Under the pieces are notes generated by a model. That model had not been told where the DNA came from. It ran no database searches and saw only the letters and a program-made list of their open reading frames with translations. From Gammaproteobacteria bacterium (lineage in GTDB: Bacteria; Pseudomonadota; Gammaproteobacteria; SZUA-152), in NCBI GenBank assembly GCA_032250735.1, contig JAVVEP010000021.1, positions 1 to 49,120 on the forward strand: a stretch of DNA of 49,120 nucleotides. The letters run 5' to 3'. Every line of letters begins with the position of its first letter. The first letter of the stretch is position 1. Both the position numbers and the translations under genes were made by a program. Below, piece by piece: positions 5,614 through 42,021 of the stretch.

Positions 5614-5661
5614 CCCCCGTAGGGCGCAATAACCGCAGGGCATTGCGCCGTATGACGGGGG
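5614..5661. repeat. REP-like palindrome, GGCGCAAT family, copy 1
   Basis: A nested inverted repeat in the fkpB-ispH gap. The inner arms are GGCGCAAT (5623-5630) and ATTGCGCC (5642-5649) around an 11-base spacer. The outer arms are CCCCCGT (5614-5620) and ACGGGGG (5655-5661). The same inner element occurs at 20193-20219 and, inverted, at 20383-20409. Confidence 0.8.
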
Positions 5662-5751
5662 AAACGGCAATACAGGCTGTAATGAAGACGCCAACAGAAA
5701 ACCTCTGCGCGCGAGGTTCAAAAACACAGTGTTAAAGAGTGAAACCCTGAG

Positions 5752-19951: not shown

Positions 19952-20192
19952 CTTTTCTCGTGGTGCTGCGTGATAAGGCTACGTTTCATTGTCTTTGGGC
20001 GGTTCTTGCTATTGCCTGAATCCGTTGTCTAAATCTGTTGCCTAGAGTCTATGCCCGGAAAGAGAACCTGGTGCCCGTCTTATCGACCGCTGGTCAGGAA
20101 TATGAAGCCACCGGTCCCGGCGGGAAGGGTGAGGGGAGGGAGGGCGGGGGAAAGTGTGACGTGGGTCGCTTTTTTAGTGCGGAGTTGCGTAC

Positions 20193-20219
20193 GGCGCAAT
20201 AACCGAAGGGCATTGCGCC
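20193..20219. repeat. REP-like palindrome, GGCGCAAT family, copy 2
   Basis: Arms GGCGCAAT (20193-20200) and ATTGCGCC (20212-20219) enclose AACCGAAGGGC. This differs from copy 1 at 5623-5649 by a single base in the spacer (A for C). It is in the same orientation as copy 1. Confidence 0.82.
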
Positions 20220-20382
20220 GAATGTAATATCTCCCAAAGTAGAATCGTGTTGAGTGACCGATGGGAAATGCCTGGCAGAGCAGTCTTTTAATCGTTGCCC
20301 TGGTGTCACTCGTTGGCTGGGGCGGGTGTAGGCTCCCGAAAAGGCGCGCTACGCTGTTGTTTTTCCGTGGCGGGTGTCATAC

Positions 20383-20409
20383 GGCGCAATGCCCTACGGT
20401 TATTGCGCG
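20383..20409. repeat. REP-like palindrome, GGCGCAAT family, copy 3 (inverted)
   Basis: Arms GGCGCAAT (20383-20390) and ATTGCGCG (20402-20409) enclose GCCCTACGGTT, which is the complement of the spacer in copies 1 and 2. The copy is therefore in the opposite orientation, with one arm mismatch. Confidence 0.8.
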
Positions 20410-20416
20410 CTACGGC

Positions 20417-20503
20417 ACTGTAGGGGCCGAGCCCTCTCGGCGATTCTCTCCCAACGATCGTGCCGCCTCGACCCATCGGCCAGAGGGCTGGCCTCCTACG
20501 GCA
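20417..20503. repeat. Inverted pair of GTAGG-type REP sequences (REPIN-like)
   Basis: The left copy begins CACTGTAGGGGCCGAGCCCT at 20417 and runs through CTCGGCGATT. The right copy (about 20474-20502) is its inverted counterpart, reading TGCCGTAGGAGGCCAGCCCT on the minus strand. Each copy is itself palindromic around AGCCCTCT. The layout, two short GTAGG-headed palindromes facing each other over about 30 bases, resembles REPIN/BIME elements mobilised by RAYT transposases in other gammaproteobacteria. No RAYT gene lies in this window. Confidence 0.65.
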
Positions 20504-38804: not shown

Positions 38805-39986
38805 GTGTTGACTTGGCGGGGTGGCTCGCATAGCGTGCGTTTTATGTGCAAATCAGACCGTTGGATAAATCTTGTGGTGTCAGCGCGCTGGCTGCTGGCC
38901 GTGTTGTTGCTGCCCTCGGTGGGCCTGACGGCGGAGGTCAGCGGGCTGTACGAGGCGGAGGTGCAGGTGTTCAGCCAGCAGCGCAGTGAGCGGGCCACAG
39001 CGATGGCCGCGGCGCTGGCCGAGGTGCTGGTCAAGGTCAGCGGCCAGCCCGATGCGGCCCAGCTGCCGGACGTGGTGCAGGCGACCCGCAGCCCGGCTGC
39101 CTTCCTGCAGCGCTACCACTATCGTGCCCTGTCGGATCAGCGACGTGAGCAGGCCCTGCAGGAGGCCGCGGCGGCGGGCCTCACCGGTGCCGATCCGCAG
39201 CTGGTGCTGTTCCGCTTCGATAAGACTGCGGTGGACCGGGTATTGACCGATCACCAGCTGCCGGTGTGGGGGGCGACGCGGCCCGCCACCCTGGCCTGGC
39301 TGGCGGTGCAGGATGCCGAGCAGCGATACCTGCTGGCCGCTGATTCCATCCAGCCCGTTGCTGAGCTGCTGACCCGCGAGGCCCGGCGGCGCGGTCTGGC
39401 CCTGCTGCTGCCGCTGATGGACCTGGAGGATCAACGCAGCCTCTCCTTTGCCGATGTCTGGGCCGGTTTTCGCGATCCCATCCTGCAGGCGTCCACCCGC
39501 TATCGCACCGAGTCGGTGCTGGTGGGGCGCATGTTCCGCAATACCGGTGGCGACTGGCAGGCGCAGTGGACCCTGCTGGAGGGCCAGCAGACCCAATCCT
39601 GGGCCAGCGCCGGCGTGTTGCCGGTCGAGGTGATTGATGGGGGAGTCTCCGGCACCATCGAGGTGCTCGCCTCGCGTTATGCCCCGGTGGCGGGCGAGCT
39701 GGCGGGCCGCTTGCCGATGACGGTGGTGGCAGTACGCAGCCTGGGTGATTACGCGCGGGTGACGCAGTATCTGCGATCCCTGCAACAGGTCGGTCATGTG
39801 CAGGTCACGCGGGTCGATGCCGACCAGGTGAGCTTCGAGCTGGAGGTGGAGGGCGGCCCCGATGCCATCGCTCAGACCATTGCGCTGGGCCACGTCCTGC
39901 AACGCTACCAGCCGCGGTTGAGCGCCACCGGCGGGCCGGTGGAGTGGGCGGAGAGGAATACCCAGACCTATCAGCTGTTGCCGTAA
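38805..39986 (+). CDS. DUF2066 exported protein
   Basis: Up to 393 residues from GTG 38805. ATG 38844 (MCKSDRWINLVVSARW) or GTG 38874/38877 may be the real start, since the signal helix is WLLAVLLLPSVGLTAEVSGL. The DUF2066 region has an EVQVFSQQRSERATAMAAAL segment and EVLVKVSGQPDA at its N-terminal end, LPLMDLEDQRSLSFADVWAG in the middle, and a C-terminal beta domain. Function is unknown. In Pseudomonas and related genera it lies between purM and hda, as it does here apart from the phosphatidyltransferase and permease genes. Weak short repeats of TTCGG-CATACC type precede it at about 38728-38785. Confidence 0.85.
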   Translation: MLTWRGGSHSVRFMCKSDRWINLVVSARWLLAVLLLPSVGLTAEVSGLYEAEVQVFSQQRSERATAMAAALAEVLVKVSGQPDAAQLPDVVQATRSPAAFLQRYHYRALSDQRREQALQEAAAAGLTGADPQLVLFRFDKTAVDRVLTDHQLPVWGATRPATLAWLAVQDAEQRYLLAADSIQPVAELLTREARRRGLALLLPLMDLEDQRSLSFADVWAGFRDPILQASTRYRTESVLVGRMFRNTGGDWQAQWTLLEGQQTQSWASAGVLPVEVIDGGVSGTIEVLASRYAPVAGELAGRLPMTVVAVRSLGDYARVTQYLRSLQQVGHVQVTRVDADQVSFELEVEGGPDAIAQTIALGHVLQRYQPRLSATGGPVEWAERNTQTYQLLP

Positions 39987-40109
39987 ACGGAACGTGACGT
40001 CCCTCAATCGTAATGTGGCGGCGGGCGCTCATTCAGGTGGTTTTTGGCGGCGGCAGCATCCCGATGACCCGAATGCTGCCCGTGCCCGTCCACACCCGTC
40101 TGAAAGAGT

Positions 40110-40351
40110 GCTAGGAGGCTGTCGGACTATGGGAATCGTAGCAAGCATGGTGGGAAATCGAGTCCATATTTTCGATCATTTGAGGAAAATAGTGGGCCTA
40201 TTTAACGACCAATCCGCCGGGAGCGGATTGGGACCGCGCAAGCGACCCCGAAGGGGTGAAATACAGGACGTATTTCATCAAAATGATCGGAAAAATGGGC
40301 CGATTTCCCATCAGCGCAGTAGATTCTTCCATAGTCCGACAGGCTCCTAGC
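40110..40351. mobile_element. MITE-like element with long inverted arms
   Basis: A 242-base element bounded by about 24-base terminal inverted repeats, GCTAGGAGGCTGTCGGACTA at the left (40110) and the inverse ending TAGTCCGACAGGCTCCTAGC at the right (40351), with one substitution in the shared core. A second pair of imperfect arms lies inside: GGGAAATCGAGTCCATATTT near 40152, facing ATGATCGGAAAAATGGGCCG near 40280. The centre holds AATCCG-CCGGGAG-CGGATT and TGAAATAC-AGGAC-GTATTTCA hairpins. There is no transposase gene. No target duplication longer than two bases is evident. The right end lies three bases before the likely start codon of the following gene. Confidence 0.82.
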
Positions 40352-40354
40352 GTC

Positions 40355-40921
40355 ATGGAGATGAACCAGCTTCCCAATATCATCAGTGTGTTTCGCATGT
40401 TGCTGGTGCTGCCGGTGGTGTGGAGCCTGTTGCAGATGGAGTTCGGTGCGGCGCTGGTGTGGTTTGCGGTGGCCGGCCTGTCCGACGGCCTGGACGGTTT
40501 TCTGGCCAAGCATTATGGCTGGCAGAGTCGGCTGGGTTCCATCCTCGATCCGCTGGCCGACAAGCTGCTGCTGGTGTCGGTGTTCTGCACCCTCACCTGG
40601 CTGGCGATGATTCCGTTGTGGCTGCTGATTGCGGTGATGGCGCGGGATCTGCTGATCGTTATCGGCGGGGTGATTTTTCATTACAGCCTGGGCCGCTTCG
40701 ACATGGAGCCCTCGCGGATCAGCAAGGTGAATACCTTTGTGCAGATCGTGTTTGTGCTGGCGGTGGTTTTTTACCACGGCGATTTTGCACTGACCCCCTG
40801 GATTATCGAGGCGCTGGTCTATATCGTGCTCGCCACCACCGCGCTGAGTGGTCTGGACTACATCTGGACCTGGGGAAGGCGGGCGCTGGATATTCTGCGG
40901 CAGAAGGGCCCGAACGCATGA
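40355..40921 (+). CDS. CDP-alcohol phosphatidyltransferase family protein
   Basis: A 188-residue integral membrane enzyme from ATG 40355 (MEMNQLPNIISVFRMLLVLP); ATG 40361 is a close alternative. The in-frame ATG 40256 lies inside the MITE and its leader lacks family similarity. The catalytic CDP-AP motif is present as DGLDGFLAK followed by GSILDPLADK, with Lys in place of the usual Arg in D-G-x2-A-R. Enzymes of this family transfer a phosphatidyl group from CDP-diacylglycerol to an alcohol such as glycerol phosphate; the acceptor is not predictable here. It is similar to but distinct from PgsA. The MITE ends three bases upstream, so the native leader has been replaced. The permease gene follows 41 bases later. 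Confidence 0.9.
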   Translation: MEMNQLPNIISVFRMLLVLPVVWSLLQMEFGAALVWFAVAGLSDGLDGFLAKHYGWQSRLGSILDPLADKLLLVSVFCTLTWLAMIPLWLLIAVMARDLLIVIGGVIFHYSLGRFDMEPSRISKVNTFVQIVFVLAVVFYHGDFALTPWIIEALVYIVLATTALSGLDYIWTWGRRALDILRQKGPNA

Positions 40922-40962: not shown

Positions 40963-42021
40963 ATGCTGAATGATTCGCAGAAGTGGTTACTACTCGCTGT
41001 TACACTGACGCTGGGTTTCCTGCTGTATCTGCTGGCGCCGGTGCTGACGCCGTTTCTGGCCGCCGCCTTGCTGGCGTATCTGGGCGATCCGCTGGTGGAT
41101 CGCATGGAAGCGAAAGGCATGCCGCGCGCTGCCGCGGTAACGGTGATCTTTGTGCTGCTCTTGTCCGCCATGGCGGGGCTGCTGTTGCTGCTGCTGCCCG
41201 CCCTGCAGCAACAGCTGGTTGCCCTGGCCAGGGCCGTGCTCGGCTATCTCGACTGGGCGCAGGAAAATCTGGCGCCGTGGCTGAGTCAACGCTTCGGTAT
41301 CGATGCCTCGGCGCTGGACTGGTCGAGCGTGAAGTCGAGCCTGCAACAACACTGGTCCCAGGTGGGTGGTGCGGCGGGGGGGGTGATGTCCTGGCTGTCT
41401 TCGTCGGGCATGGCGCTGGCGGCGGTTTTGGCAAATCTGGTGCTGATCCCGGTGGTGACCTTCTATCTGTTGCGTGACTGGGACCTCCTGCTGGCGCGTT
41501 TTCGCAGCCTGTTGCCACGCCGTTGGGAGGCCACGGTGGTGCGACTGGCGACAGATGCCGATACGGTGCTGGGCGCCTTCTTGCGCGGGCAGTTGCTGGT
41601 GATGCTGGTGCTTGGGATTGTCTATTCGCTGGGCCTGTGGTGGGTCGGTCTGGAGCTGGCGCTGATCATCGGCGTGGTGGCGGGGCTGGTAAGCTTTGTC
41701 CCCTATCTCGGCTTTATTATCGGTATCCTGCTGGCGGGTGTCGCCGCCTTCATGCAGTTTCACGAGCTTTACTATTTGCTGTTAGTCGCTGCGGTGTTTG
41801 GTGTGGGCCAGGCGCTGGAAGGCATGCTGTTAACGCCGCTACTGGTCGGTGACAAGATCGGCCTGCACCCGGTGGCGGTCATTTTTGCGGTGATGGCGGG
41901 CGGACAGTTGTTCGGCTTTATGGGGGTGATGCTGGCCCTGCCGGTGGCTGCGGTGATCATGGTGCTGGTGCGATACCTGCAGCAGCAGTATCAGCAAAGC
42001 GAGCTCTACGCGAATACGTGA
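40963..42021 (+). CDS. AI-2E family transporter (PerM-like)
   Basis: A 352-residue polytopic membrane protein with about eight helices. Family blocks are PVLTPFLAAALLAYLGDPLV at the N terminus, a periplasmic or soluble loop (about residues 80-150), LIPVVTFYLLRDWD, and the C-terminal LVSFVPYLGFIIGILLAGVA, EGMLLTPLLVGDKIGLHPVA and GFMGVMLALPVAAVIMV. The family includes the AI-2 exporter TqsA and sodium/proton antiporters, so substrate cannot be inferred. AAGG precedes the ATG. It lies directly upstream of hda, a neighbourhood also known in Pseudomonas. Confidence 0.92.
   Translation: MLNDSQKWLLLAVTLTLGFLLYLLAPVLTPFLAAALLAYLGDPLVDRMEAKGMPRAAAVTVIFVLLLSAMAGLLLLLLPALQQQLVALARAVLGYLDWAQENLAPWLSQRFGIDASALDWSSVKSSLQQHWSQVGGAAGGVMSWLSSSGMALAAVLANLVLIPVVTFYLLRDWDLLLARFRSLLPRRWEATVVRLATDADTVLGAFLRGQLLVMLVLGIVYSLGLWWVGLELALIIGVVAGLVSFVPYLGFIIGILLAGVAAFMQFHELYYLLLVAAVFGVGQALEGMLLTPLLVGDKIGLHPVAVIFAVMAGGQLFGFMGVMLALPVAAVIMVLVRYLQQQYQQSELYANT

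Follow-up and report, generated by a model that had tools for sequence, protein, structure and literature searches.

A mobile hairpin element directly precedes the PgsA-like gene in the 49,120-nt stretch analysed here (the window). We conclude that it was inserted at this locus because it is multicopy in its own genome and is absent from 23 of the 23 orthologous loci examined, eight of which are from the same genus. The element is a copy of R1, a widespread non-autonomous hairpin family that is found at CTAG sites, and it carries a second repeat, R2, in its loop (Table 1). The 23 orthologous loci are 24 of the 30 that were fetched, minus the window's own locus; L080-L085, at 45% identity or less, were excluded from the ortholog and spacer counts. 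The preliminary description of this DNA had recognized a MITE-like mobile element and a CDP-alcohol phosphatidyltransferase gene directly after it, and both identifications hold. It also named two observations that would speak against mobility, namely an element absent elsewhere in the genome or one fixed in relatives as an ordinary conserved leader. The genome search finds the element in many places and the comparison of the locus in relatives finds it in none of them, so that the conserved-leader reading is refuted and we give it next to no weight.

Table 1. Features of the locus, in positions of the window.
Feature	Positions	Strand	Evidence or remark
Upstream operon gene, DUF2066 protein	38805-39986	+	PF09839, E 2.6e-69; neighbour in 22/23 orthologous loci examined
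Likely surviving start of ancestral spacer, ending TGACGTC	39987-40001	+	TGACGTC/TGACGTT before the start codon in the same genus
Single-copy DNA, 109 bp	40002-40110		Single copy in own genome; no plasmid match
R1 element (mobile hairpin, 240-bp form)	40111-40350	structured strand +	R1 bit score; genome copies
Terminal CTAG, left	40111-40114		
AGGAGG, perfect Shine-Dalgarno core	40113-40118	+	Left arm, 10 nt before ATG 40129
73-codon frame inside element (hypothetical)	40129-40350	+	Stop is the right TAG, 40348-40350, 4 nt before ATG 40355
R2 module, 72 nt, in apical loop, three small hairpins	40209-40280	+	86.8 bits, E 6.6e-22
Terminal CTAG, right	40347-40350		
CDP-alcohol phosphatidyltransferase (PgsA-like)	40355-40921	+	PF01066, E 6.8e-31
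Next cluster gene, AI-2E/PerM-type transporter	40963-42021	+	PF01594, E 1.9e-57

A BLAST search of the element's own genome returned three complete 240-bp copies (contigs C21, C7 and C17), a fourth truncated where its contig (C4) ends, and three shorter, similar copies of 168 bp without the internal 72-bp stretch; five further contigs terminate in 54-55 bp of the element. With a covariance model, 15 distinct R1 places were found in this genome (26 rows, both strands). The element has several of the features by which MITEs are known: it is short and without a transposase gene (240 bp, its sole frame being 73 codons), it has terminal inverted repeats, and it is multicopy and present or absent at orthologous sites. 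A base-level empty site was sought at the thiE copy and none was found, the relatives being too divergent there; the CTAG at both ends of many copies is a possible target duplication.

The preliminary description drew the element as 242 bases ending at 40351. The element itself stands, and the boundary common to other copies is 40111-40350, or 240 bp. The gap to ATG 40355 is four nucleotides (CGTC, 40351-40354) rather than the three first counted, and the in-frame codon at 40256, which had been read as an ATG, is GTG; in-frame ATGs within the element lie at 40283 and 40295. As RNA the element has a predicted folding energy of -137.4 kcal/mol, against a shuffle mean of -72.1 (z -13.6; 0 of 200 shuffles as stable). 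The R1 covariance model gives the window copy 143.1 bits on the + strand and 59.6 on the - strand, and the structured R1 strand is here the mRNA strand. A 16-base end motif (up to 3 mismatches) matches the window at the element's two ends only; at least two matches also occur in 15 of 100 shuffles, so the case for the element rests on the whole element together with its other copies and not on this motif.

Comparison with the relatives indicates what the locus looked like before the insertion. In 21 of the 22 loci with a DUF2066 neighbour, the spacer between this gene and the PgsA-like gene measures -4 to 29 nt, some of the PgsA-like starts being extrapolated where the alignment does not cover the first residues; in the window it measures 368 nt. 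Such short spacers look like those of coupled operon genes, not like the upstream region of a gene with its own promoter, and without the insertion PgsA-like translation was probably coupled to that of DUF2066. The one exception, in a second species of the genus (G011, locus L058), has 389 nt between the two genes, with no R1 among them, and may represent another insertion or an expansion. Loss of close spacing is therefore not special to the element. In four of the eight same-genus loci, TGACGTC or TGACGTT directly precedes the start codon. The window's spacer opens with 15 nt whose last bases are TGACGTC, and CGTC appears again after the element, just ahead of the ATG, so that a 4-bp CGTC repeat flanks the 109 bp of single-copy DNA plus the element. 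Bases resembling the old spacer are thus found on both sides of the block, which indicates that DNA was added and not swapped; as judged from these flanks, the ancestral spacer looks interrupted rather than replaced. The preliminary description had argued that the element must have replaced the native leader, ribosome-binding site and perhaps promoter. Neither the short spacers in the relatives nor the flanking bases agree with this, and a sigma-70 consensus scan of 39900-40420 found no site in 39900-40354; we have rejected leader or promoter replacement on the basis of the spacers and the scan.

The inserted unit may have been 349 bp (the 109 bp plus the element) rather than 240 bp. A search for the origin of the 109 bp gave no plasmid match and no second copy in the own genome. 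This segment contains a 33-codon frame (40013-40114) that ends exactly in the element's left CTAG and is possibly a relic of the end of another gene.

R1 is not confined to this genome. Of 369 genomes sampled from its class, taken to be Gammaproteobacteria, 86 contain it by the covariance model at E 1e-8 or better, representing 68 of 271 genera; these counts, like those for R2 below, are lower bounds, because the filters were strict and few candidates were scored in each genome. The standard form is about 167 nt long, with 165-169 nt in 54 of 63 elements of one set and in 117 of 123 of another. Some copies (L051, L044, L135, L142 and L177) are lengthened to 180-242 nt by other inserts, which indicates that parts of the element tolerate passengers. 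An exact 24-base pattern recovered 27 stretches, from gammaproteobacterial MAGs, Candidatus Venteria ishoeyi, and records titled Geobacter, Desulfuromonadales and Deltaproteobacteria; R1 is also present in Desulfuromonadales MAGs. A single R1 copy used as query found no match in phages and, by blastn, none in an E. coli collection. Plasmids gave one weak R1 match, 20 nt downstream of a gene on a Pseudomonas plasmid, and viral contigs gave two pattern matches. Rfam holds no family for R1, the window stretch and five R1 loci having matched far below the gathering score. Literature searches by sequence string found no paper describing R1, and those by topic found known families only, in both cases among the matches listed. 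The family, with its clear covariation, seems to be undescribed and unnamed.

The fold of R1 is conserved as a structure. Of the 53 full-length elements listed, 45 were aligned. The predicted structure of these members has 62 pairs, 43 of which have changed on both sides; 95.0% of cells are paired, and none of 500 shuffles attains any of the five measures used. When the partner is shifted by one column, the covariation score falls to 0.147 or 0.122, from 0.462. Conserved unpaired stretches lie between the covarying stems. The two strands are not equivalent in these predictions: G-U occupies 286 cells and A-C 59, or 81 versus 46 when only pairs common to both strands' predictions are counted. 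The given strand is the more stable in 44 of the 45 aligned members and, in a separate set, in 55 of 57 unique elements (27 of 27 at one per genome), compared with 20 of 40 simulated decayed palindromes. The first set was oriented chiefly with a short core motif and without recourse to energy, the second with the model; a second alignment (A2) mixes both strands of the same elements, and its pair counts were not used. By these models the folding of R1 is strand-specific.

R1 is frequently seated on the stop codon of a neighbouring gene. In 53 of 123 elements the terminal four bases supply the stop of a neighbour of at least 100 codons, as TAG (once TAA), and of the 163 ends into which a gene reads, 55 place the stop in the terminal four bases and 15 deeper in the element. 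The gene-side four bases of the 51 one-sided cases are CTAG in 43, TTAG in 4, ATAG in 3 and CTAA in 1, and at the far end they are CTAG in 34 and CCAG in 11. These counts omit 8 partial or degenerate of 69 elements and the duplicate set-B loci; they are not independent, as two genomes contribute 35 of the 62 set-B elements. In the window's own genome the genes seated on an R1 stop, as read by eye, include thiE, hscA and thiC, and solo element ends also adjoin gene ends, one of them at the yidC stop. CTAG is rare in the window (25 observed, 173.5 expected from base composition); of the 23 sites outside the element, 4 are stops, 9 are intergenic and 10 lie inside ORFs, with genes defined by ORF length. 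Because 4 of these 23 sites are already stops, we set aside a special targeting of stop codons. CTAG targeting together with selection against gene damage may be enough to explain the seating.

A strand that acted mainly in host mRNA should follow the direction of the neighbouring gene, yet the strand of R1 relative to the genes stopped by its terminal TAG is random (28 versus 27), which speaks against a conserved function in host mRNA. We infer instead that the folded strand may serve the element itself, for instance as a single-stranded intermediate or as an RNA of its own. Several details accompany these landing sites. Very-short-patch repair converts CTAGG to CCAGG, and CTAG to CCAG, the change that such repair would give, is the commonest at the far end. 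At C1:71063-71248 (L105) in the own genome, an R1 at a thiC-like stop is followed directly by a truncated second R1 end, in what we read as a nested or tandem insertion at a regenerated CTAG. On contig C1 of genome G378, perfect TAGGAG ends lie mostly on the - strand below about 0.8 Mb and mostly on the + strand above 1.2 Mb, a switch that probably follows gene direction.

The R2 module has a distribution of its own. Its model, built from nine sequences that include the window copy (L297 and L299 were left out), matches 66 of 369 genomes and 59 of 271 genera, and four genomes of the same family contain R2 copies that have no R1 match around them. The closest sister copies of the window element also carry R2 in the apical loop, and in two other genera R2 lies inside R1, in the same orientation in L306 and reversed, within a weaker partial R1 match, in L303. 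On the sequence comparisons, R2 is an independent repeat. In an alignment of 36 copies, all from 30 R2 loci, the stems covary in 19 of 21 pairs, and the predicted apical loop contains GGA in all 36 three-prime hairpins and in 35 of the 36 five-prime ones. In the window the GGA motifs at 40220 and 40266 are predicted to lie in the loops of the first and third hairpins. The copies also occur in other settings: three stand in tandem in L326, and in L309, L315 and L324 R2 lies between TTCG(A) and ATCC, as in the T-arm of a tRNA.

The expression signals around the PgsA-like gene suggest how the insertion might act on it. Its ATG is preceded by TCCGACAGGCTCCTAGCGTC, which lacks a Shine-Dalgarno core, and the perfect AGGAGG core in the left arm of the element lies 10 nt before the ATG of the hypothetical 73-codon frame; once the right arm is made, this core is predicted to pair with it. 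None of the 17 other ATGG-type ends listed in the own genome (up to 2 mismatches) has the final G of AGGAGG, and the frame is open in six of the six own-genome copies translated (the window and five others). The frame could be a product of chance in a palindrome, with an ATG that belongs to this subfamily. A scan for intrinsic terminators found none on the + strand and one on the - strand (40315-40299; shuffles average 0.4), and a terminator acting on the + strand at the element is unlikely.

The explanation that we favor, at a probability of about 0.6 for the whole, is as follows. The R1/R2 insertion in the operon would supply no promoter and would break the translational coupling between the DUF2066 and PgsA-like genes. 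Its very stable hairpin would enter the shared mRNA as a likely RNase substrate, and after processing the upstream and downstream parts of the message would be free to decay independently, by analogy with what sections of PMC10969869 and PMC2229807 report for ERIC and Correia elements. The PgsA-like gene would then be translated by restart after the 73-codon frame or by weak direct initiation. It is plausible that the element controls the lipid gene.

Other effects on the gene can be imagined, and each meets specific difficulties. Correia elements have been described as supplying promoters (in part of PMC4853749), and R1 might do the same here; the sole sigma-70-like match of the scan lies inside the gene (40356-40383; shuffles average 0.4) and the locus looks like an operon, which together make such a promoter improbable, at least one of the sigma-70 type that was scanned for. 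Still less probable is an N terminus derived from the element, which the preliminary description had raised. The frame is indeed open from GTG 40256 into the gene, and ATG 40283 or ATG 40295 could also start it, but no Shine-Dalgarno-like stretch is seen by eye before any of these codons, and same-genus orthologs align at ATG 40355, seven of eight from residue 1 and the eighth from residue 3. A more elaborate possibility, based on the predicted hairpins, is that CsrA/RsmA sets PgsA-like expression through the pair of R2 hairpins with GGA loops in the leader, or that the R2 copies act as decoys. Passages in PMC4347634 give the CsrA consensus as RUACARGGAUGU, with ACA and GGA invariant and GGA in a hairpin loop. 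R2 presents GGA in this way, keeping it in predicted loops while its stems covary, and both window hairpins are on the mRNA strand; 3 of 36 copies match the published consensus exactly. Against this, the R2 model was trained on such loops, which biases its matches, and the window copy lacks R between ACA and GGA and has GGACG for GGAUG. Its GGA motifs end about 87 and about 133 nt before the ATG, and R2 shows no clear orientation bias: 3 copies lie between two + genes, 2 between two - genes, 6 between convergent and 4 between divergent genes, 19 fall within a long ORF of either strand, and 2 have one flank unassigned. We consider Csr control unlikely, if less so than a promoter.

As to its kind, R1 could be an ordinary MITE, that is, an internally deleted DDE insertion sequence with CTAG/TA duplication, IS630-like or other, mobilised in trans, in which case the long palindrome would be merely its extended terminal repeats. 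IS630 prefers CTAG, and R1 is small and multicopy, with inverted ends and CTAG at both, the far end retaining it in two thirds of the one-sided cases (34/51). However, nine own-genome regions around solo or decayed ends contain ordinary genes, with no transposase domain (Pfam) in 20 of their ORFs, and a search for a parent by way of DUF772 in 11 genomes found none; the own genome's one DUF772 match has only chance-level end matches, with 3 mismatches in 12. A parent could have collapsed at six own-genome contig ends or could have other ends. Nearly all of the R1 matches listed span the whole model across 68 genera, the inner stem segments change in both arms together, and strand-specific folding is not something that terminal repeats recognised as duplex DNA would require. 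We regard an ordinary MITE as a real possibility, at less than even odds. More tentatively, and with the odds clearly against it as a complete proposal, R1 may be a distinct mobile class rather than a decayed insertion sequence. The selected unit would be the folded strand of about 167 nt, as RNA or single-stranded DNA, inserting at CTAG, surviving by the regenerated TAG stop, spreading in Gammaproteobacteria and into Desulfuromonadales, and taking up loop passengers that include a mobile CsrA-like GGA repeat; the lipid gene would then be under a new post-transcriptional input. Strand-specific folding, as predicted for R1, invites comparison with elements of the IS200/IS605 type, and the replacement of stem-loops by IS1272, reported in part of PMC5678879, is a lead for structure-directed insertion.

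Among known systems, R1 by analogy works most like ERIC and Correia elements. With ERIC (IRU, RU-1) it shares a short, intergenic, imperfect palindrome that occurs in many genera and forms a stable RNA hairpin; we know of no enzyme that mobilises ERIC. The two differ in size, termini and hosts as far as the ERIC sources describe them: ERIC is a 127-bp unit with TA termini in enterobacteria and vibrios, and R1 is about 167 nt with CTAG ends. The length of R1 accordingly excludes identity with ERIC. Effects of ERIC on mRNA decay depend on its orientation, according to a section of PMC2229807. Correia/NEMIS elements are likewise hairpins that are co-transcribed with genes and processed by RNase III (as related in PMC10969869), and differ, in the accounts consulted, in being neisserial, with TA termini and an IHF site in one form. 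Similar in size are YPAL, or RU-2, elements of Yersinia, which insert downstream of stop codons. They are palindromic, intergenic and about 167-168 bp long (parts of PMC2229807 and PMC2759123), with termini that are described as lacking TA and target duplications of 3 to 26 bp. One published RU-2 sequence gave no match to the R1 profile at E 10 with nhmmer (positive control 7.7e-55), and identity with this family was rejected. Chunjie, a MITE of Geobacter uraniireducens that is 178-235 bp long and reported in an operon (part of PMC10969869), was compared by description only; one record that contains R1 is itself titled Geobacter sp. For R2, the three tandem copies downstream of a tRNA in L309 overlap sub-threshold matches to RtT RNA (RF00391), but the best R2 score is 36.9 bits against a gathering score of 45, and RtT is not listed for the window.

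A hairpin family of this breadth offers a test case for the means by which a palindromic element with no known parent moves, why the fold of one strand is conserved while the orientation of insertion looks random, and how a mobile element lands harmlessly in stop codons. The locus itself serves as a natural experiment on what the loss of close coupling does to a membrane-lipid gene. Two further CDP-OH matches lie elsewhere in the genome. The window also contains another inverted repeat family, of the type GGCGCAATGCCCTACGGTTATTGCGC, at 5617-5674, 20183-20224 and 20358-20419.
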